Both the position numbers and the translations under genes were made by a program. Below the pieces are notes generated by a model. The model worked only from the letters and a program-made list of their open reading frames with translations, was not told the DNA's origin and did no database searches. A stretch of 64,000 bases of DNA from Granulicella sp. S190 (lineage in GTDB: Bacteria; Acidobacteriota; Terriglobia; Terriglobales; Acidobacteriaceae), in NCBI RefSeq assembly GCF_009766095.1, contig NZ_LMUD01000002.1, positions 164,837 through 228,836 of the forward strand, given 5' to 3'. Numbering within the stretch: the stretch's first letter is position 1; each line of letters starts with the position of its first letter. Shown one piece after another: positions 2 through 9,227 of this stretch.

Positions 2-298
2 GCCTTGGTGAGCCGACCAGGGAATACGGATATTCAGCTCGATCTGTTTTTCGATTATCAAAACAACGTGAAGCTGTATCCGAAGTTTCAGGAGTACTTC
101 AGGACATCGAAGCCACCGCTGCTGGCGATCTGGGGAAAGAACGATCCATTCTTTATTCCACCAGGAGCTGAGGCGTTCAAGAGAGATCTTCCAAATGCTA
201 CCGTCCAGTTTCTAGATACTGGACACTTTGCGCTGGAGACGCATGTGGAGGAGATCGCGGTGGCCGTGAGGGAGTTGCTGGCAAAAAACGCAGGTTGA
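2..298 (+). CDS. alpha/beta hydrolase, C-terminal fragment
   Basis: The gene enters from the left edge, so only about 98 C-terminal residues are visible. The segment PPLLAIWGKNDPFFIPPGAE carries the acid-loop of alpha/beta-fold hydrolases, with the Asp of GKNDPF as the expected catalytic acid. LDTGHFALETH holds the expected catalytic His in the usual GHFA/LE context. The nucleophile Ser lies outside the window. Substrate cannot be deduced; epoxide-hydrolase, haloalkane-dehalogenase and esterase-like members all share this tail. It converges with the radical SAM gene, with 40 bases between the stops. Confidence 0.8.
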   Translation, partial: ALVSRPGNTDIQLDLFFDYQNNVKLYPKFQEYFRTSKPPLLAIWGKNDPFFIPPGAEAFKRDLPNATVQFLDTGHFALETHVEEIAVAVRELLAKNAG

Positions 299-338: not shown

Positions 339-1403
339 TCAGATATCGTGGCTGTTTGGCGTGGCGTCTTCGCCGGCGTAGTTGTAGAGTAGCCACTCGC
401 CGACGAGGACGTCCGCAATTTTCTCCTTGTACCGGGCTGCGATGACCTCGCGCACGAGGGGATCTTTGTAGAGGCGCATGCACGCCTGGCAGCGGTGTGC
501 GTACATATCCTCCCACTCGATGCTTGGCTCGTGAGTGGCAGCCCAGGCAAGGATGCGTTCGGGCCCTTCGACGCGGATCCAGCGTTTGAGGTAGTCCTCG
601 CCAGCAGCATGGTCCGCTTCGCCGATCGTGGTGAGGCCGACGCGTCCCACCTGAAGCTCGGGGACAGTGCGCATCCCAAGACCGCAACAGGCGCCGATGC
701 GTCCGTCAGCTTGAATTGCCGTAGTGGAGAGGATGCTGTTGCAGCCGGTGCGGGTGGCGACATTGTGTCGGTTGATGGTGGAGCCGTCGCGATATTCGTT
801 CGTCTTCATGGGCTCGAGCGGCATCCAGGGGCTTTCGAGTACCTCGAGACGCTTGCGCGGAAAAGTGCTGCGGATGGCCGCGAAGTCTTCCCGGGCCTCG
901 ATGGCTTTGGCGGTAATGGTGCGGTCGCGGACCGTCTCGACCATGACGACGATGGCGCTGAGAGGAGAGGCGGCTGCGGCTGCGGTGGCGCGAACGACGT
1001 TGTCGAGGGGGACGAAGCGGGCGTGTTCGTCGCCGGTGCTGAAGTTGATCTCTTTGAGGCCGGCATCGATGAGCTTTGCGATCATTCGCTCGGCCTGGAT
1101 GGAGGTTGAAGCCCAATAGGCGTTGGAGACGACGCGCGTGGAGAGGCCAAGTGACTGGGCGTGACGGATGGCAGTGAAGAGATCGTTCGCGGCAAGAGTG
1201 GGCTCGCCTCCGGTGAAGACAACAACGCGATAGTCGCCCTGGGCCGCTGCCTGGTCGATCGCGGTGATCATGTTTTCGAGTCCGAGCCAGGATGTCTCGG
1301 AGCGTCCGCTGAGGGTGCCGCAGTGCGAGCACTCGGCGGTGCACTTGTAGGTCGGCATCACCGACAGGGTACGCAACTGGTGAAGCGGAGTGGGAATGCT
1401 CAT
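339..1403 (-). CDS. radical SAM/SPASM-like enzyme (putative peptide maturase)
   Basis: This is a 354-residue radical SAM protein. The [4Fe-4S]/SAM motif is C21-x3-C25-x2-C28, followed by a GGEPT motif at 65-69. The C-terminal third carries more cysteines in a SPASM/twitch-like arrangement: a Cys in RTGCNS, a pair in IGACCGLG and a CxxC in HRCQACMRLY, suitable for an auxiliary Fe-S cluster. In the family, such enzymes usually modify peptides or proteins. Its start overlaps the stop of the upstream acidic repeat protein by 4 bases (ATGA), so the two are translationally coupled and probably act together. The chemistry is not deducible from sequence. Alternative: an anaerobic sulfatase-maturase-like or tRNA/cofactor enzyme, but the coupling favours a protein substrate. 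Confidence 0.85.
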   Translation of the reverse strand: MSIPTPLHQLRTLSVMPTYKCTAECSHCGTLSGRSETSWLGLENMITAIDQAAAQGDYRVVVFTGGEPTLAANDLFTAIRHAQSLGLSTRVVSNAYWASTSIQAERMIAKLIDAGLKEINFSTGDEHARFVPLDNVVRATAAAAASPLSAIVVMVETVRDRTITAKAIEAREDFAAIRSTFPRKRLEVLESPWMPLEPMKTNEYRDGSTINRHNVATRTGCNSILSTTAIQADGRIGACCGLGMRTVPELQVGRVGLTTIGEADHAAGEDYLKRWIRVEGPERILAWAATHEPSIEWEDMYAHRCQACMRLYKDPLVREVIAARYKEKIADVLVGEWLLYNYAGEDATPNSHDI

Positions 1404-2416
1404 CGGACATCTCCGGCGATGGGCGCAGAGGGTACGGAGAGTATAAGCTCGGCGACGATGGGATGATCTACAACAAGGCCGGCGAGCCTCTGGAGATCAA
1501 GGCGCGACAGTTGATCGCCGGAAGCTTTGCGCTTTCGGATGGCTGGTCCTTCTACGCCAGCCTCCGCTTCCGCTTCCGCTTCAAGTTCGGCTTCCAGTCG
1601 CAGATCGGTTTCTGATTCGAGATCTGTCTCCGCTGAAGCATCGATATCGGTGTCTGCGTCGGCTTCCGTGTCGAGGTCGACCTCGGCGTCTATTTCAAAG
1701 TCGACTTGCGTCTCGACCTCCGATTCAATTGCGATCTCCGATTCGACCAGAGTGTCAATTTTGGTGTCGACTATGGCACGGGTTTCAAGCTCGAGCGCGG
1801 CCTTCGCCAGAACGGCGGCGCGGGTCTCAAGGGCAGCGTGGAGCACGGCATCGACTTTTGTCCTCAGCTCCAGTTCTATGACGGTGTTGGTATGCAGACG
1901 CTGCTCGAGCAACGCGTTTACATTCGCCTTGGTCTCAAGATGAAGCTTCGCTTCGAGAGCAGTAGCCAGACGCGCCTCTATCTCCGTGATGGCCTGCAGT
2001 TCGGTGGAGACCCTGACCTGAAGGGCGGCGCGGAGATCAGAAGTGGCCTTGACATCGACGTTGAAGCCGCGTGTGAGAGCGGAGGAGATGGCCTCATCGG
2101 AGTGGCCAGCGAGCGCCTGCCGCAGAAGGGGAAGATAGCCTTTGGTTGGATGAGTCTCCTGCCCTGGCGTCGGAGGCGGCGGGTCGGAGTTAAGAAGGCG
2201 ATGAAAGATGCGATTGAAGGCGCTGACTCCGAGGGATTCGCGGAGGTCGACTCCGAGATACTCGGTCAGCAGTGTCTCAGGCGAGTTCAGGAAGGACATG
2301 CGGGCATCACTGGACTCGGAGAGGTGTCGATGCAGGCTGGCGATGCGTGCGGTGAGACCAGGCTGGCTCAGGACGAGATCCTGGTGCTGAGGAAGAATGA
2401 AGGAATTAAGGTTCAT
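1400..2416 (-). CDS. acidic alternating-repeat protein with NHLP-like segment, possible RiPP precursor
   Basis: A 338-residue protein of no family I recognise. Residues 42-58 (FLNSPETLLTEYLGVDL) resemble the leader signature of nitrile-hydratase-like RiPP precursors (hydrophobic-x3-P-x3-L then G-V-D-L). From about 119 to 287 residues alternate strictly: odd positions are mostly charged or polar, even positions are small or hydrophobic. In 225-285, 27 of 31 odd positions are Asp/Glu. A 12-residue sub-period is visible in 127-222. The tail 288-338 returns to ordinary composition. There is no Cys and only two Tyr, so thioether products are excluded. The start is supported by CAGGAG seven to eight bases upstream. 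It is coupled by ATGA to the radical SAM enzyme. The opposite strand is open too, but lacks such signals. Confidence 0.7.
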   Translation of the reverse strand: MNLNSFILPQHQDLVLSQPGLTARIASLHRHLSESSDARMSFLNSPETLLTEYLGVDLRESLGVSAFNRIFHRLLNSDPPPPTPGQETHPTKGYLPLLRQALAGHSDEAISSALTRGFNVDVKATSDLRAALQVRVSTELQAITEIEARLATALEAKLHLETKANVNALLEQRLHTNTVIELELRTKVDAVLHAALETRAAVLAKAALELETRAIVDTKIDTLVESEIAIESEVETQVDFEIDAEVDLDTEADADTDIDASAETDLESETDLRLEAELEAEAEAEAGVEGPAIRKRKASGDQLSRLDLQRLAGLVVDHPIVAELILSVPSAPIAGDVR

Positions 2417-2592
2417 GGTTCACTCCTGGGAAGATACCTGGGGGGCCCGGAGGAAGCAGATCTGGCTAGCCGATTTCGTCCAATCAGCCTCTGCTCGTGC
2501 CCGATCATTTGTCAATCAAATAATTTGGGACGCGAGACAGAGAGCTTTATCTATCGTGACGGAACGCGGAGTTTTGTTACAGGATAAAGAGG

Positions 2593-3768
2593 CTACTCGA
2601 CCGGAAGTTTGGCGTTGTAGCCGTCGCGGGCTATGACCGAGTATTTTTGTGGTTTTCCTTTTTCATCCTGCATACGGAGGGGGTGGCCTTCGTTGTCGAC
2701 GAGGAGGACCTTGACCTTGCGGTAGCTGCCGTCGTTCTTGTTGTTGGTCGGACGGTAGGTGAGGATGTACTCGTTGCGGATGGAGTCGTTGATCTGGGCA
2801 AAGATATCCGGAAGCTCGCCTTGGAAGATAGGGGCGAAGCTGAGGCCGCCGGTCATGGCAGAAAAGGTTTTTAACTGGTTTTGAGCCTGAAGGTAGTCAA
2901 GCTCTCGAGGGCCACCACCGCCTCCGCGAATCTCGTTGATAAGAGCGCCTGTGCTAATAGAGAAGATGGTGACGTTTGGGGTGTTCTTCACCTTGGCGAG
3001 AATCTTATCGAGGGTGAGTTTGGAGAAGGTATCGCGGCCTGAGCCAATGAGGATGATGTACTTGCGGCCTTCGATACGGCTGGTACGGTCCAGCGTCTCA
3101 TAGAGAGCGTCGAAGAGATTGGTGTCGGAGAAGCCGGGGATAACGAGGGACTGGAGTGACTGGGCGATGAGGTCTTTGTTGTTGGTGAAGTCGGTGAGGA
3201 TGTGAGTGCGTAGGTCGTAGGTGACAACGGCAACGTAATCGTCTTTGCGCAGCGAACGGAAGAAGCTGTAGGACGCGTTCTGCATGTCGCGGATGAGGTA
3301 GTAGCTATTGGCGGCGAACTCCAGCAGCATGACTGCGGTGATAGGAGTCTGTGTAGTGCGAACGCTGGTGATGGTCTGGGGGACGCCGTCTTCCAGAATG
3401 AGGAAGTTGTTGGCTTTGAGGCCGGGGACGAACTGATGGGTCTTATCCAGGATGACGCTGGCGTCGATGTTGACGATGGGGACGTCGACGCGAAGGGAGA
3501 AGGTCTCGTTATCAGGATTCTTAACCTTGGGAGCGACGGGCGCGGGTGGCGGCGGGGGCTCGTCTGCCTCCTTCTTTTTCTTGAGTATGATGGTGCCGTT
3601 ATCGGTATCAGGGCCGGCGTCGTCGGGGGAGGGCGGGGTGGGTTTAGTTTGTTGCGGAGGATTTTGCGCAGGGGCGTCCTGGGCGTTGGCAGAGAACAGG
3701 GTGAAGACAGTGCAGCAGGCGAGGAGAAGAAGGATGCGAGCCCTGAGAGGCGGAAGAGTGGTCATCAT
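2593..3768 (-). CDS. secreted VWFA-related protein (Acidobacteria type)
   Basis: 391 residues with an N-terminal signal peptide ending near SANAQ, a Pro/Asp-rich linker (about 30-85), then a VWFA-like fold. The order LRVDVPIVNIDASV, an EDGVPQ turn, a Rossmann core and a C-terminal YRKVKV/P-L-R-x-Q segment matches the VWFA-related domain family that is expanded in Acidobacteria. The MIDAS position reads LLEFAANS rather than DxSxS, so metal binding is doubtful. Probably exported and involved in protein-protein interaction; the true function is unknown. It is divergently oriented from the S55-domain gene, with 91 bases between starts. Confidence 0.85.
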   Translation of the reverse strand: MMTTLPPLRARILLLLACCTVFTLFSANAQDAPAQNPPQQTKPTPPSPDDAGPDTDNGTIILKKKKEADEPPPPPAPVAPKVKNPDNETFSLRVDVPIVNIDASVILDKTHQFVPGLKANNFLILEDGVPQTITSVRTTQTPITAVMLLEFAANSYYLIRDMQNASYSFFRSLRKDDYVAVVTYDLRTHILTDFTNNKDLIAQSLQSLVIPGFSDTNLFDALYETLDRTSRIEGRKYIILIGSGRDTFSKLTLDKILAKVKNTPNVTIFSISTGALINEIRGGGGGPRELDYLQAQNQLKTFSAMTGGLSFAPIFQGELPDIFAQINDSIRNEYILTYRPTNNKNDGSYRKVKVLLVDNEGHPLRMQDEKGKPQKYSVIARDGYNAKLPVE

Positions 3769-3859
3769 CTGAAACTTTACTCCGAATATTGGACTGCTCT
3801 TCCCTGTAATAGTAAGTGAGAGAGCTGAGGAGGAGAGGCTCTAGTAGTCTGTAGACGTG

Positions 3860-5689
3860 ATGGCTGCGGTAAAGACTCGATTGGGGATGGCTGGCCTGGC
3901 ACTGAGCGGGGCTTTGGTGAGTTCAGTGCTAGTGGGCAGCGCCCGGGCTCAGATGCAGGCGCCGGTCGAAACGGGAGGATGGACAGCGGTTGCGGCACCC
4001 TCGGTTGCGCCTGCGGTGACGAAGTTCTTCCCACTGAGCGAGGTGAGGCGTGGGATGCGCGGGGTGGCATATACGGTGTTCGAGGGAGTCAACCCTGAGC
4101 CGATGCAGGTGGAAATTTTGGGGATCCTGAAAGATGCGCTGGGTCCGGGACAGGACATGATCCTGGCGCGACTGCATGGCGACAAGCCGGAGTATACGGG
4201 CGTGGTGGCGGGGATGAGCGGCAGCCCGGTCTATATCGACGGGCGATTGGTGGGAGCGCTGAGTTACAGGATTGGACAGTTCAGCAAGGAGCCGATTGCG
4301 GGAATTACGCCGATCGAGTCGATGCTGCAGGTGCGGGATGACGATGGCGCAGCGGGAATGAAGCTGGCGTCCGTTAGTAGGGAGATTGAGGGGCAGCCGG
4401 AGATGCGGGCGATGGAGACTCCGCTGATCTTCGGCGGGTTCAGCCAGGAGACGGTGGAGCGGTTTGGCGACAGGTTTCGCGCGATGGGTCTGACCCCGGT
4501 GGTTGGACTGGGCGGAGCGGATTCGTCACTGGCACAACCCGAGCCGCTAGTACCGGGAAGTGCGGTGAGCGCGGTATTGGTACGCGGAGATCTATCGATG
4601 GCCGGAACCTGCACCGTGACTTACGTGGACCCTAAGCGGCTTCTGGCGTGTGGACATCCGATTACCCAGTACGGTCCTGTGGATATGCCGATGACCAAAG
4701 CTACGGTGTTGGCTTCGCTGGCGTCGCCGCTGAATGCGTTCAAGATTATCAACACGACCGAGACGGTGGGCGCGTTCACTGAGGATCGTGCGTCGGCGAT
4801 CATGGGGCGGTTCGGGGTTGAGGCACGGATGATTCCGGTAGTAGTGGAAGTGTTGCCCCCGGTGATGGACGGTGCCGTGCAAGGGAAGGTAAAGACGCTG
4901 CACTTTGAGGTGTTGGACAATCGCCAGTTGACGCCCTCGGCGATGCTGGTCTCGGTATACCAGAGCCTGCAGACGAATAACACGGCGGCGGAGGAGTTGA
5001 GCTATCGGCTTTCTGGCGAGATCGATGTGAAGGGGTTGCCGCCGGTAAAGATGCAGGGACTGATGGCGCAGAACGAGTTCAACCCGGCGACGATCAATGC
5101 GGCGCTGCTGGTGAACGATCGCTTCAGCAAGGTATATGGAAATGCGCTGGACCAGCCGGTAGTGACTGGAGTGAAGTTGAGGGTGGAGGCGATTGCGGCA
5201 AGGCTTACGGCAGTCCTGGAGTCGGCGCGCCTGAGCCGGGCTGAGGCACGGGCAGGTGAGGAGATTGAGGTAGAGGCGATGGTGCATCCCTACCAGGCGG
5301 AGGCCCGGATGCTGCGGGTGAGGGTGAAGCTGCCGGAGAATTTGACGGCAGGCGCGATGCGGGTGGTGGTGAGTGACGGAGGGACGGTAGACCGTCTGAC
5401 GACTAAGTCTGGAGCGGAGCGGTCGGTAGGTCTGGCCGACACGGTAGATGCATTGAACCGAGTGCACGCCAACGATCGGGTCTATGTAACGCTGTTGAGC
5501 CATGCGACGCAGGTGGTACTGGAAGGAGAGGCTCTGCCTGGGGTGCCGCTGTCGATGGCGAATGTGCTTGAGCCGTTGAAGGAGTCGCAGAAGATGCAAC
5601 TGACGGGAGAGAGTGTAGTGGCTGCGGGATCAGTCGACGCGGGGTACGCTGTGAGTGGGTATCAGGTGTTGAATCTGACAGTGAAGTAA
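3860..5689 (+). CDS. SpoIVB-type S55 peptidase-domain protein
   Basis: About 609 residues with a signal peptide (cleavage near ARAQ). The region around 95-130 holds GMSGSPVYIDGRLVGAL, the S55/SpoIVB serine motif; a second conserved block, LLACGHPITQYGPVDM, follows near residue 260. S55 peptidases are best known from Bacillus sporulation, but secreted or periplasmic homologues occur in Acidobacteria, which do not sporulate. The C-terminal half looks like beta-rich domains (EIEVEAMVHPYQ, LRVRVKLPEN). A GTG at 3857 immediately precedes the ATG. A TAGTCT box 9 bases before the ATG may be a -10 element of a near-leaderless transcript. Peptidase activity is plausible but the catalytic His is not certain. 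Confidence 0.85.
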   Translation: MAAVKTRLGMAGLALSGALVSSVLVGSARAQMQAPVETGGWTAVAAPSVAPAVTKFFPLSEVRRGMRGVAYTVFEGVNPEPMQVEILGILKDALGPGQDMILARLHGDKPEYTGVVAGMSGSPVYIDGRLVGALSYRIGQFSKEPIAGITPIESMLQVRDDDGAAGMKLASVSREIEGQPEMRAMETPLIFGGFSQETVERFGDRFRAMGLTPVVGLGGADSSLAQPEPLVPGSAVSAVLVRGDLSMAGTCTVTYVDPKRLLACGHPITQYGPVDMPMTKATVLASLASPLNAFKIINTTETVGAFTEDRASAIMGRFGVEARMIPVVVEVLPPVMDGAVQGKVKTLHFEVLDNRQLTPSAMLVSVYQSLQTNNTAAEELSYRLSGEIDVKGLPPVKMQGLMAQNEFNPATINAALLVNDRFSKVYGNALDQPVVTGVKLRVEAIAARLTAVLESARLSRAEARAGEEIEVEAMVHPYQAEARMLRVRVKLPENLTAGAMRVVVSDGGTVDRLTTKSGAERSVGLADTVDALNRVHANDRVYVTLLSHATQVVLEGEALPGVPLSMANVLEPLKESQKMQLTGESVVAAGSVDAGYAVSGYQVLNLTVK

Positions 5690-5702
5690 CCGCACAGTGC
5701 GG
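5690..5702. terminator. short hairpin after the S55 gene
   Basis: CCGCA-CAG-TGCGG directly after the stop codon forms a 5-bp stem with a 3-base loop. No clear T-tract follows, so this is only a weak termination candidate. Confidence 0.3.
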
Positions 5703-5817
5703 TGTGGTCAAGCCAATAAGTGCTGACCGAGGTTTTGTTACATGATGGTTGCTGCGATGACGATTCGTGTAGAGGATGATTTTTTACTCATGGTGGTGTT
5801 GTAGCATCAAAAGGTAG

Positions 5818-5839
5818 GCGCGGCGGATATGTTCCGCGC
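5818..5839. promoter_or_regulatory. inverted repeat upstream of alcohol dehydrogenase
   Basis: GCGCGG and CCGCGC arms separated by 10 bases lie about 20 bases before the start codon of the alcohol dehydrogenase. It could be an mRNA 5'-UTR hairpin or an operator. No function can be assigned from sequence alone. Confidence 0.3.
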
Positions 5840-5859
5840 TCCAAAGGGAAAGACTTCAA

Positions 5860-6867
5860 ATGAGTGAAATACACGGTTTCGCCGTTCATGCGGCCGGTGC
5901 ACACCTCCTAGCTTATAAGTACGATCCGGGTGAGTTGCAGGCTAATGAGGTCGAGATCAAGATCTCGCACTGTGGCGTGTGCCATAGCGATGTTCATCTA
6001 ATCGACAATGACTGGGGTATCAGTAAGTATCCGTTTATTCCTGGCCACGAAGTTGTAGGCATAGTAGTGGCGCTCGGCTCCGCGGTAAAGGATCGCACGA
6101 TGGGAGAGCGAGTGGGGGTGGGCTGGCAGGCAGATAGCTGCGGCATCTGCGAGTGGTGCCGGCAGGGGCAGGAGCATCTTTGCGCGAAGTCGCAACCAAC
6201 CTGCGTAGGACGCAATGGCGGGTTCGCCGACAAGATCCGCGTGAACTCAAAGTTCGCAATTCCCTTGCCTGAAGCATTGGAGAGCGAGAATGCAGCTCCT
6301 CTGCTGTGCGGCGGAATTACCGTGTACTCGCCGCTTAGAAATCATGGCGTTCGTCCGGCGTCGCGGGTGGGAGTCATCGGCATTGGCGGCCTCGGACATC
6401 TGGGAGTGCAGTTTGCCAAGGCGTTCGGCGCAGAGGTCACGGCATTTTCGACTTCAAAGGATAAGGAGGCAGAGGCACTTGCTTTGGGAGCGCATCACTT
6501 CGTGAATACACGGGACACTGGTGCCTTGAAGAAGGTTGCCGGCTCGTTTGATTTTCTGCTTTCGACGGTGAGCGCAGACCAGGACTGGCAGGCCTACGTG
6601 AGCGCGCTCCGTCCCAAGGGAATGTTCTGCGTTGTAGGAGCCGCCCCTTCGCCAATCCAGGTTGCTGCGTTCTCACTAATCAGCGGACAGAAGGCGATCT
6701 CTGGAAGCCCAACCGGCAGCCCATATGACTTGAGCGAGATGCTCGATGTGGCTGCCCGGCATGGAGTGAAGGCGACCACGGAGAGATTTGCGATGGCCAA
6801 AGCGAATGATGCAGTGGCCAAGGTGAAGAAGAACCAGGTTCGATATCGAGCCGTTCTGACGAACTAA
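5860..6867 (+). CDS. zinc-dependent NAD(P) alcohol dehydrogenase (YahK/cinnamyl-type)
   Basis: 335-residue medium-chain dehydrogenase. The catalytic zinc site is seen in CGVCHSDVH and GHEVVG; the structural zinc site in CGICEWCRQGQEHLC provides four Cys. The nucleotide-binding motif is GIGGLGHLG (about 169-177), followed by FSTSKDKEAEALALGA, where Ser-Thr-Ser after the second strand is typical of NADPH-preferring YahK/CAD aldehyde reductases. Predicted role: cytosolic reduction of aldehydes with NADPH. Preceded by a good ribosome binding site (AAAGGGAAAG). It is monocistronic, flanked by intergenic sequence on both sides. Confidence 0.93.
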   Translation: MSEIHGFAVHAAGAHLLAYKYDPGELQANEVEIKISHCGVCHSDVHLIDNDWGISKYPFIPGHEVVGIVVALGSAVKDRTMGERVGVGWQADSCGICEWCRQGQEHLCAKSQPTCVGRNGGFADKIRVNSKFAIPLPEALESENAAPLLCGGITVYSPLRNHGVRPASRVGVIGIGGLGHLGVQFAKAFGAEVTAFSTSKDKEAEALALGAHHFVNTRDTGALKKVAGSFDFLLSTVSADQDWQAYVSALRPKGMFCVVGAAPSPIQVAAFSLISGQKAISGSPTGSPYDLSEMLDVAARHGVKATTERFAMAKANDAVAKVKKNQVRYRAVLTN

Positions 6868-7001: not shown

Positions 7002-9227
7002 ATGATGCGACGAGTGTTGGTTACAGGTTTGGTGGTGGGGGCTACCCTTCTGTCCGCGTGGGCGAGCGCACAGGGTACGAAGCTGTGGAGCGTGGAACGC
7101 TACGACGAGATGGAAAAAGGCACCTCGGAGGGTGTGGCCATTCGCAGCGATGGACGCCTGGAGGCGGGACCGGCGAGTTCATTGCTCTACGAGACCGGTA
7201 AGAGCTATGCATGGTCGATAGCGAGCGATACCAGTGGGAACGGGTATGTGGGGCTGGGTGGGACAGCCGCCGGGGCGGCGTTGGTGATGAAGGTCACGCC
7301 GGACGGAAAAGCCTCGCAGATCTTTGCTGGCAAGGAGCTTGCGGTGCAGGCAGTGAGAGTTGCACCAGATGGAACCCTCCTCGCGGCTACCTCTCCCGAT
7401 GGGAAGGTCTATCGTATTCCGCAGGGTGGTGGAGCGGCGGCAGTCGTCTTCGATCCTGCGATGACGGAGGAGAAGCCGAAGTACCTCTGGGATCTGGCTG
7501 TCGGGAAGGCTGGGGAGATCTACGTAGCAGCAGGGGCTCCGGCGGTGGTGTATCGAGTGCCTGCCGGAGGTGGAAAGGCAGAGGTGCTGTTCAGGACGGC
7601 GGATCAACATATTCGTTGCCTGCTGTTGAGTACGGACGGAACGCTTTGGGCGGGGTCGGACGGATCGGGCGTGGTGTATCGCTTCGCAACGGGAACGGTA
7701 GGGGCGAAGCCGTTTGCCGCGTATGCTGCGGCTCGGCGGGAGATTACGGCTCTGGCGATGGATGCGGCAGGCAACGTGTATGCCGCCGGAGTTGGAACGA
7801 AGGGGCGTTCGACGCTGCCGCCCTTGCCAGTAACCGGTGGCGTGGGCGTGACGATCACGTTTGTGCAGCCAGGCTCATCTACGGCGGCGGGACAGAATAC
7901 GCTGGTGCCGGATGGCTCGGAGATCTATAAGATAGCGCCGGATGGTTCCCCGCAGAAGTTGCTGACGCTGAAGGATGACGTGGTGTACGCGCTCACGATG
8001 CAGAATGGGAAGCTGCTGGCGGCAACTGGAAATCGCGGGCGCATCTATCGTGTGGAGACCAATGGCGATGGCAGGTTTACCGATATAGCGCACCTGGAGG
8101 CTTCGCAGGGAATGGCATTCGCCTCGGTGAAGGATAGTCTGCTGATCGCAACCAGCAACAGTGGAAAGGTGTTTCGGTTGGCAGATGTGGTTGCGACTGC
8201 GGCTACCTATACGAGTGATGTATTCGATGCGCAGAGCTTCTCGCAATGGGGACGTGCAGAGGTAAGAGCTGGCACAGCGGTAGGGTTCGAGCTATCTGTG
8301 CGGAGCGGAAACGTTGAAAGCCCTGTTATGGGATGGAGCGAGTGGAGACGCGTGGCGGCGGACGGAAGTTTTACCGTTCCGCCCGGTCGCTTTGTGCAGT
8401 GGAAGGCATTGCTTCGAGACAACGGAAGCCTGGATGCGGTAGCGCTGAATTATCTGCAGAGAAATGTCGCGCCAGTGGTCGAGGAGGTAGTGGTGCAGCC
8501 CGGCGCTCGGGTGACGCCAGCGACTCCGGTTGCCGCCAATGCGACGGTGCAGGTGGCCTTCCCTGCTGCCGGAGCGACTCCTGTCTTTTCCGCCGATGCT
8601 GGTTCTGCTCCTCTCACGGCGCAGAAGGATAAGACTGCGGTAACGGTTCGATGGATGGCCCATGACGACAACGGCGATGACCTGATGTACGCGGTGTGGT
8701 ATCGCGGCGTCGGCGAGGCGAACTGGCGATTACTGAAGGACAAGCTCTCCGAGAAGGTCTACAGCTTCGATTCGGCGCTGCTACCGGATGGTAGTTACGA
8801 AGTGAAGGTCGTAGCGAGTGATGCTCCGGTACACACGGATGCGGAAGCGCTGACAGGAGAGCGGTCGAGCGAAGTGTTTGTGGTGGATACAACGCCGCCT
8901 ATGCCGGGGGTATTGACGGCGGAGGCGATCAAACGGATGGAGTGGGTGGGTTCTGTGCAGGTGAACTCTATCTTGATTCATGCGACGCTGGAGGCGAGGG
9001 ATGCTACTTCGCCGATCGCGCATGCGGAGTACTCGATTGACGCGGGACCGTGGCAGTATCTGGAGCCGGTTGGGAAGGTTTCGGATTCGCTTTCGGAGCG
9101 ATATGACTTTACGGTGGCGGTGCCAGCGACGACTACTCCAGTGAGTGATGCGAAGGAGCATGTGCTGGCTGTGAGAGTTTATGACCGTTATGAAAACGTC
9201 ATCGCGGTAAAGGCGGTGGTGCGGTAA
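7002..9227 (+). CDS. secreted beta-propeller protein with Fn3-like C-terminus
   Basis: 741 residues with a signal peptide (cleavage near ASAQ). Residues about 40-395 contain repeated blades of the form PDGTLLAATSPDGKVYRI, KAGEIYVAAGAPAVVYRV and GKLLAATGNRGRIYRV, each with a G-x-(I/V)-Y-R-(V/I) end, as in NHL/SMP-30-like propellers. A middle segment with P-rich linker follows (about 490-540), then beta-sandwich segments resembling fibronectin type III (DDNGDDLMYAVWYR, LPDGSYEVKVVASD, DTTPP). Likely periplasmic or outer surface. The ligand is unknown. Its stop overlaps the start of the TRIC-type channel by one base (TAATG), implying co-translation. Confidence 0.75.
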   Translation: MMRRVLVTGLVVGATLLSAWASAQGTKLWSVERYDEMEKGTSEGVAIRSDGRLEAGPASSLLYETGKSYAWSIASDTSGNGYVGLGGTAAGAALVMKVTPDGKASQIFAGKELAVQAVRVAPDGTLLAATSPDGKVYRIPQGGGAAAVVFDPAMTEEKPKYLWDLAVGKAGEIYVAAGAPAVVYRVPAGGGKAEVLFRTADQHIRCLLLSTDGTLWAGSDGSGVVYRFATGTVGAKPFAAYAAARREITALAMDAAGNVYAAGVGTKGRSTLPPLPVTGGVGVTITFVQPGSSTAAGQNTLVPDGSEIYKIAPDGSPQKLLTLKDDVVYALTMQNGKLLAATGNRGRIYRVETNGDGRFTDIAHLEASQGMAFASVKDSLLIATSNSGKVFRLADVVATAATYTSDVFDAQSFSQWGRAEVRAGTAVGFELSVRSGNVESPVMGWSEWRRVAADGSFTVPPGRFVQWKALLRDNGSLDAVALNYLQRNVAPVVEEVVVQPGARVTPATPVAANATVQVAFPAAGATPVFSADAGSAPLTAQKDKTAVTVRWMAHDDNGDDLMYAVWYRGVGEANWRLLKDKLSEKVYSFDSALLPDGSYEVKVVASDAPVHTDAEALTGERSSEVFVVDTTPPMPGVLTAEAIKRMEWVGSVQVNSILIHATLEARDATSPIAHAEYSIDAGPWQYLEPVGKVSDSLSERYDFTVAVPATTTPVSDAKEHVLAVRVYDRYENVIAVKAVVR

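Follow-up and report, generated by a model that had tools for sequence, protein, structure and literature searches.

A predicted EpeE-type epimerase encoded beside a giant alternating precursor-like protein in Granulicella sp. S190

Near one end of a 64,000-nucleotide stretch of Granulicella sp. S190 (contig NZ_LMUD01000002.1; hereafter the window), two minus-strand genes overlap by ATGA. They encode a precursor-like protein of 338 residues and a radical S-adenosylmethionine (SAM) enzyme of 354 residues (Table 1). These open reading frames (ORFs) and their overlap agree with an original prediction, made from the DNA letters, which proposed a system resembling ribosomally synthesized and post-translationally modified peptides (RiPPs): a SPASM-type radical SAM enzyme paired with a protein in which a Cys-free alternating tract takes the place of the core.

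Table 1. Features of the gene pair, with window coordinates
Feature	Coordinates	Strand	Basis
Radical SAM enzyme, 354 residues, predicted EpeE/YydG-type peptide epimerase	339..1403	-	PF04055 7e-11; TIGR04078 54 bits; profile match to YydG
C305-x2-C308, likely auxiliary-cluster ligands (putative role)	480..491	-	Invariant in 26/26 aligned enzymes
C239-C240 of CCG; C240 falls on EpeE Cys223, the proposed H-atom donor	684..689	-	HMMER alignment to 8ai6
C221, likely auxiliary-cluster ligand (putative role)	741..743	-	Invariant in 26/26 aligned enzymes
GGEPT motif	1197..1211	-	GGE invariant in 26/26 aligned enzymes
C21-x3-C25-x2-C28, radical SAM cluster motif	1320..1343	-	Invariant in 26/26 aligned enzymes
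Precursor-like protein, 338 residues: leader, giant alternating core, follower	1400..2416	-	8 homologues, alignment
Follower SRLDLQRLAGLVVD, start of C-terminal part	1466..1507	-	SR-x-D-x-Q-R-x-A shared with Streptomyces (L043) and Roseiarcus (L004) precursors
GPAIRKRKA basic patch at core/follower border, possible processing site	1523..1549	-	Similar patch in close homologues
Alternating core, residues 122-286, single register	1559..2053	-	Face counts; 180-degree peak in 9/9
RGFNV at leader/core border, residues 116-120	2057..2071	-	RGFN invariant in 9/9
Leader, residues 1-118	2063..2416	-	Alignment to 4 homologues and to 8 precursors from other loci
NHLP-like segment SFLNSPETLLTEYLGVDL, residues 41-58	2243..2296	-	Leader motif F-x2-[ND..]-P-x3-L
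AGGAG, ribosome-binding sequence ahead of precursor gene	2423..2427	-	Read from sequence

Radical_SAM was the only Pfam domain above cut-off in the enzyme, with Fer4_12 falling below it. In NCBIfam the model for the YydG peptide epimerase, TIGR04078, matched best, with 54 bits where its cut-off is 300; the same model was the best match in all six relatives scanned (55–86 bits, covering most of the model in four), and hence in 7/7 with the window enzyme included. A profile built from 26 enzymes matched YydG, also called EpeE, over positions 5–315 of 349 (E 3e-30). This was the only full-length relative that the profile found in the PDB, the six other sequences matched reaching only about the first 120 positions. 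Searching the PDB with the window enzyme as a single sequence returned YydG alone, over residues 11–138.

All eight Cys of the enzyme (21, 25, 28, 221, 239, 240, 305 and 308) are invariant among the 26 aligned sequences, and the predicted C21-x3-C25-x2-C28 and GGEPT motifs are both present. Across the window enzyme and the best 120 of 817 matches, CCG occurs in 121/121, the C-x2-C tail in 120 and the CxxxCxxC motif in 115. The HMMER alignment places C239-C240 on residues 247–248 of the 8ai6 chain, which are EpeE Cys222-Cys223 given a 25-residue tag offset that was itself derived from the alignment; C221 lies two places away from an EpeE Cys, with no exact match. EpeE Cys223 is described as the proposed hydrogen-atom donor (PMC8326336). 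The window enzyme is thus homologous to EpeE over nearly its full length and carries an equivalent of this residue, supporting epimerization, which the original prediction had pointed to, as the likely chemistry.

SPASM domains are reported to hold 7–8 Cys that serve two auxiliary clusters (PMC5682303). Since the window enzyme has five Cys past the radical SAM motif and matched no SPASM domain in the Pfam scan, we rejected the SPASM assignment. The originally noted C-terminal Cys-rich block consists of C221, C239-C240, C305 and C308. With one likely set of auxiliary ligands and one putative donor Cys, the enzyme follows the plan of EpeE rather than that of SPASM proteins, and sequence comparison reassigns it to the EpeE type.

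For the 338-residue protein, we searched some 5.8 billion clustered proteins, scoring alignments for the 7,996 candidates that had most words in common, and obtained eight homologues. Common to them are a leader that ends in RGFN and a follower with SR-x-D-x-Q-R-x-A; the core between these varies in both sequence and length. Of 30 precursors, 24 have the leader motif F-x2-[ND..]-P-x3-L, as against 5 of 213 background ORFs, which are mechanical ORFs rather than annotated genes; the motif was taken from these same alignments, and the contrast is therefore a favorable one. A looser form occurred in 24 of 28 precursors, but also in 38% of the background (the window protein is included in both the 28- and the 30-protein sets). 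No family of nitrile hydratase leader peptides (NHLP) in NCBIfam matched the window protein at E<=1. TIGR04509, the model for NHLP-related RiPP peptides, matched 11 of the 23 precursors in an alignment (A6) that excludes the window protein and contains several mutually close Streptomyces-type relatives; these matches are weak (E<=1, best 1e-5), and the sole printed score, 18.8 bits for the Streptomyces locus L043, lies under the 34-bit cut-off. The nitrile-hydratase-type leader originally placed at residues 42–58 is consequently supported through the family, whose motif spans residues 41–58, and not by a direct match of the window protein. As had been noted for the tract, Cys is absent, and this extends to the entire protein, which accordingly lacks the core Cys that the thioethers of sactipeptides and ranthipeptides require.

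Alternation in the core is stronger than first described. Polar residues (D/E/K/R/H/N/Q) occupy 1 of the 83 even positions from 122 to 286 and 66 of the 83 odd positions from 121 to 285, in agreement with the strict polar/apolar tract predicted at about residues 119–287. The spectral power of the window core at 180 degrees is 77, compared with a maximum of 18 in 2,000 shuffles, and the same peak appears in all nine proteins (window and homologues; power 56–93). We also measured how far one face stays clean, meaning without any D, E, K, R, H, N, Q, G or P: the longest run is 115 residues in the window protein and 105–175 in seven homologues, against a maximum of 39 in 5,000 shuffles. Among 1,188 background stop-to-stop frames (290,239 residues), the longest such run, 47 residues, proved to be the core of a Thermus member of the family, and the second-longest, 35 residues, lies antisense to the window gene, where the tract casts alternating shadow ORFs at 1508–2056. 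Substitutions on the apolar face avoid D/E/K/R/H/N/Q in 40/40 cases relative to P0124, 39/40 relative to P0125 and 45/45 relative to P0126. E, A and L are abundant in the tract, and the last third of its polar face is nearly all acidic. What alternates is physicochemical character; at the DNA level the term repeat hardly applies, as the tract holds a single tandem array of 20–36 bp.

We compiled related loci from a genome scan (15), plasmids (9), genome draws in four phyla (11) and viral contigs (9). A precursor-like gene adjoins the enzyme gene at 34 of the 37 other loci where the enzyme carries the Cys-Cys pair (14/15 genomic, 8/9 plasmid, 5/6 drawn and 7/7 viral); genes were judged precursor-like by eye, on their position, their core and the leader motif. 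This adjacency supports the proposed RiPP-like pairing of enzyme and precursor. The count omits L061–L064, L071, the weak or partial loci L018–L042 and L060, the duplicates L050–L059 and the viral fragments L083 and L084 (locus numbers are ours), and it includes four loci checked by motif only (L078, L079, L081 and L082). The loci are not independent, because L076 and L078–L082 look like one copied cassette, as do L069 and L070. At the drawn loci with a more distant enzyme and no Cys-Cys pair (L061–L064 and L071), a precursor was seen at 0/5 on the enzyme strand within flanks of about 1.5 kb. L061–L064, from an Actinobacteria draw, belong to another radical SAM family in which a single Cys replaces the pair, and a gene that by eye is ClpP-like stands beside three of the four.

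Precursor lengths in the family range from 168 to 388 residues, with cores of 149–214 residues in the alternating subfamily, and quite different cores fill the same slot. A 24-residue window with a V+A+I fraction of at least 0.70 occurs in 13 of 28 precursors, compared with 2 of 213 background ORFs. Co-occurrence of the two genes, by which the original prediction was to be judged, gives a mixed outcome: it holds for the precursor plan, but not for the acidic repeat, which most enzyme homologues lack. By these comparisons the enzyme/precursor family spans several bacterial phyla and is in part plasmid- and prophage-borne. It is also sporadic: new members, meaning a Cys-Cys pair with an adjacent precursor, numbered 0, 2, 2 and 1 in draws of 396, 398, 297 and 390 genomes. 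The draws span four phyla, leave out Bacillota and exclude the seed genomes from the totals; the cut-off was E 1e-25 in the first three and a stricter 1e-45 in the last. As few candidates were scored per genome and E-value cut-offs were applied, these counts are lower bounds. Within the genus, 59 further genomes held no close relative of the enzyme, the matches there having 26–38% identity.

These observations are best read as a variant of the epimerized RiPPs, with the giant alternating core as its extreme and with D-residues that we infer. More specifically, we consider it moderately probable that an EpeE-type epimerase acts on a long NHLP-like precursor and that here it converts the alternate apolar residues of the giant tract to the D-form. 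A precursor of the family would have a leader that is helical and NHLP-like, then a hypervariable core, then a follower at the C terminus, with the epimerase encoded beside it. A 5'-deoxyadenosyl radical would take the alpha-hydrogen from residues of the apolar face (V, I, A, L and T), and C240 would give a hydrogen back from the opposite side to yield D-residues. As every second residue is polar, the 1,3 pattern of D-residues would be written by the sequence itself, and a chain so modified could adopt an alternating D/L beta-helical or strand fold in place of an alpha-helix. Unlinked proteases might then free the product, or the whole protein may act.

Among the nearest described counterparts is the epipeptide system of Bacillus subtilis, EpeX/EpeE (YydF/YydG). 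Its enzyme, reported to have two clusters, is related to the window enzyme over the full length with the donor Cys kept, and its precursor gene likewise sits in the operon of the enzyme. The enzyme takes the alpha-hydrogen of Val and Ile and a Cys supplies one back (PMC8326336, PMC5808125), so that YydG epimerizes one Val and one Ile (PMC5808125). The described B. subtilis leader is 32 residues long and is cut on export, whereas here the precursors are of protein length with an NHLP-like leader and a follower; nor does the locus show an epipeptide-type operon of genes for a short precursor, a protease and an ABC transporter, the flanking genes encoding an alpha/beta-hydrolase fragment and a VWA-like protein. 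In its putative NHLP-like leader and predicted pattern the system recalls the proteusins (polytheonamide and aeronamide; PoyA/PoyD), for which a long nitrile-hydratase-like leader and, in polytheonamide, nearly perfect 1,3 epimerization are described. The polytheonamide beta-helix is reported to be held by methylated Asn (PMC11285071), and alternating-Asn cores with a methyltransferase nearby occur in three relatives, from Thermus, Collinsella and Klebsiella. Unlike proteusin epimerases, the window enzyme is EpeE-like and has no second Pfam domain above cut-off. A PoyD-type enzyme with a C-terminal RiPP recognition element was not indicated, Radical_SAM alone passing the Pfam cut-off and YydG being the best relative, in scans that included neither PoyD itself nor a model for that element. 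Searches of an open-access library returned no description of such an enzyme/alternating-protein system.

Several observations weigh against conversion of alternate residues to D. We know of no precedent for some 80 D-residues in one chain, EpeE making two. The enzyme falls far under the YydG equivalog cut-off; two Cys-Cys loci, L072 and L067, show no visible precursor, and L010 has a remnant only (L067 has Cys-Cys-Ala instead of CCG and adjoins a masked stretch). The leader motif is missing in 6 of 30 precursors (L007, L046, L047, L048 and L077, together with L002, in which Thr replaces its Pro), and the window core is not rich in V, A and I (0.46). In the DNA covered, which begins at the first position of the window, the locus has no visible exporter, immunity-like gene or signal-like start, and neither flanking gene encodes a protease. 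AlphaFold2 gives the unmodified residues 126–241 as one alpha-helix, with a per-residue confidence (pLDDT) of 77–89 over residues 131–230, although the model is poor overall (mean pLDDT 62, predicted template-modeling score 0.21). Structure searches with the predicted models gave weak, uninformative results.

Alternating E/A and K/A peptides self-assemble as beta-sheets, which counts for an alternative in which the EpeE-type epimerase makes few D-residues and the tract is mainly an all-L scaffold or fiber, for example an ionic self-assembling beta-sheet. EpeE itself is reported to make two epimerizations in a short peptide (PMC8326336, PMC5808125). The almost purely acidic last third of the polar face, however, is not self-complementary, the 183-residue core used in the spectral analysis has 3 Gly and 1 Pro whereas an ordinary beta-sheet needs turns, and the slot is filled in relatives by cores of quite different kinds; we regard this alternative as unlikely. 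We think it rather less likely still that the tract forms an unmodified long rod of alpha-helix, the enzyme acting at another place or on another substrate. Such a rod would agree with the AlphaFold2 helix, with a second, low-confidence helix predicted at residues 264–286, and with the abundance of E, A and L. Helical or heptad periodicity is nonetheless absent, the power near 100 and 103 degrees being at most 1.3 in the five of nine proteins tested, compared with 56–93 at 180 degrees, and the single 180-degree register persists in all nine proteins despite their variation in sequence. Perhaps the predicted helix reflects the ground state of an all-L chain rich in E, A and L; perhaps it is the true structure.

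A different kind of repeated modification is known from TvgA/TvgB, a system that came to light when the IPR023867 radical SAM subfamily was surveyed. Its radical SAM enzyme acts repeatedly on Val of a repeating core; there the repeats are TVGG, with no polar/apolar alternation (PMC9062424). Another radical modification at alternate residues, such as the cyclopropylglycine that TvgB forms from Val in its TVGG precursor (PMC9062424) or C-C links, is very improbable here, as the closest solved relative is an epimerase whose donor Cys is kept and the Cys of the window enzyme would suffice for one auxiliary cluster plus the donor.

If epimerization of alternate residues is correct, the EpeE type of enzyme, familiar from short epipeptides, also works on long precursors of a family that crosses phyla, some of whose members lie on plasmids and in prophages with immunity-like neighbors. 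It would also mean that ribosomes and one enzyme suffice for alternating D/L chains of protein length, offering a route to protease-resistant tubes and making the setting of an epimerization pattern directly testable. We put forward a more far-reaching form tentatively, and it is doubtful as a whole: the mature protein would carry about 80 alternate D-residues in an unbroken tract and form a beta-helical tube on which charged and apolar columns run as stripes and whose end becomes increasingly acidic, within a cross-phylum, partly plasmid- and prophage-borne family that is an EpeE-based counterpart of the proteusins and in which core sequence alone dictates the D/L pattern. To our knowledge, such a protein would be the largest ribosomal D-amino-acid polymer. 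From general helix dimensions, the tube could be perhaps 10 nm long or more. With some six residues per turn, a beta-helix would have polar and apolar stripes and not a fully apolar outside, so that a simple pore in the membrane is not what the window pair would most obviously make, unlike the V/A-rich relatives. The family may be a large one of mirror-image peptides, with the window pair as its most extreme member.

The pair is flanked by an alpha/beta-hydrolase fragment (5–298, plus strand) and a VWA-like protein (2593–3768, minus strand), neither of which shows a link to a peptide pathway by Pfam. Beyond them, on the opposite strand, lie genes for a Peptidase_S55-domain protein (3857–5689), a zinc alcohol dehydrogenase (5860–6867) and a propeller-like protein (7002–9227). 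The original prediction that no protease adjoins the pair is therefore right for both flanking genes, the nearest protease-domain protein being the SpoIVB-type Peptidase_S55 protein, whose gene is divergent, about 1.4 kb from the precursor gene, and has no evidence for belonging to the pair.

Relatives of the pair have features of a kind not seen at the window locus, namely Tat-like starts and immunity-like or methyltransferase neighbors. A simple pattern identified Tat-like precursor starts at L013, L044, L045, L066, L069 and L070. Neighboring genes were scanned with Pfam in a hand-picked, not systematic, set of 26 proteins, some of them precursors or window genes. Among the neighbors are SdpI proteins (L044 and L074), DUF1648 proteins (L005 and L015; L073 as annotated), bPH_5 proteins (L012, L013 and two in L016; L045 under cut-off) and HlyD proteins (L007; L074 as annotated); a CAAX-protease-like protein stands beside the L004 pair, ABC transporters lie near L046 and L048, and a C1 peptidase near L046. 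The Tat- or lipoprotein-like starts together with SdpI, DUF1648 or bPH neighbors suggest that these relatives make exported products that are membrane-active or antagonistic.

Individual loci illustrate the range of arrangements. On the Thermus aquaticus plasmid pTA14 (L044, 2599–6074), the precursor has a Tat- and lipobox-like start and a core in which Asn alternates with apolar or aromatic residues; after it come the epimerase-like enzyme, a protein of the SdpI family and a methyltransferase of the MTS type. The loci of a Klebsiella sp. plasmid (L074, 2877–8498) and of Collinsella (L073, 2412–6173) likewise combine Asn-alternating cores with SdpI or DUF1648 neighbors and a methyltransferase, and the former has an annotated lysine-acyltransferase in addition to its HlyD gene. 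Three viral contigs (L076, L077 and L080, about 3923–6577) carry a cassette of enzyme, precursor and small membrane-protein-like gene; the precursor start is Tat-like in L076 and L080 and signal-like in L077, and in L076 and L080 the cassette sits after a phage gene that looks by eye like a tail gene. At L010 (7031–7180) the precursor gene is reduced to a signal-like remnant of about 47 residues, with the enzyme and the downstream PH-like genes kept. The Roseiarcus precursor (L004, 4901–5986) has an extra long Cys-Pro-rich repeat between its V/A-rich core and the follower.

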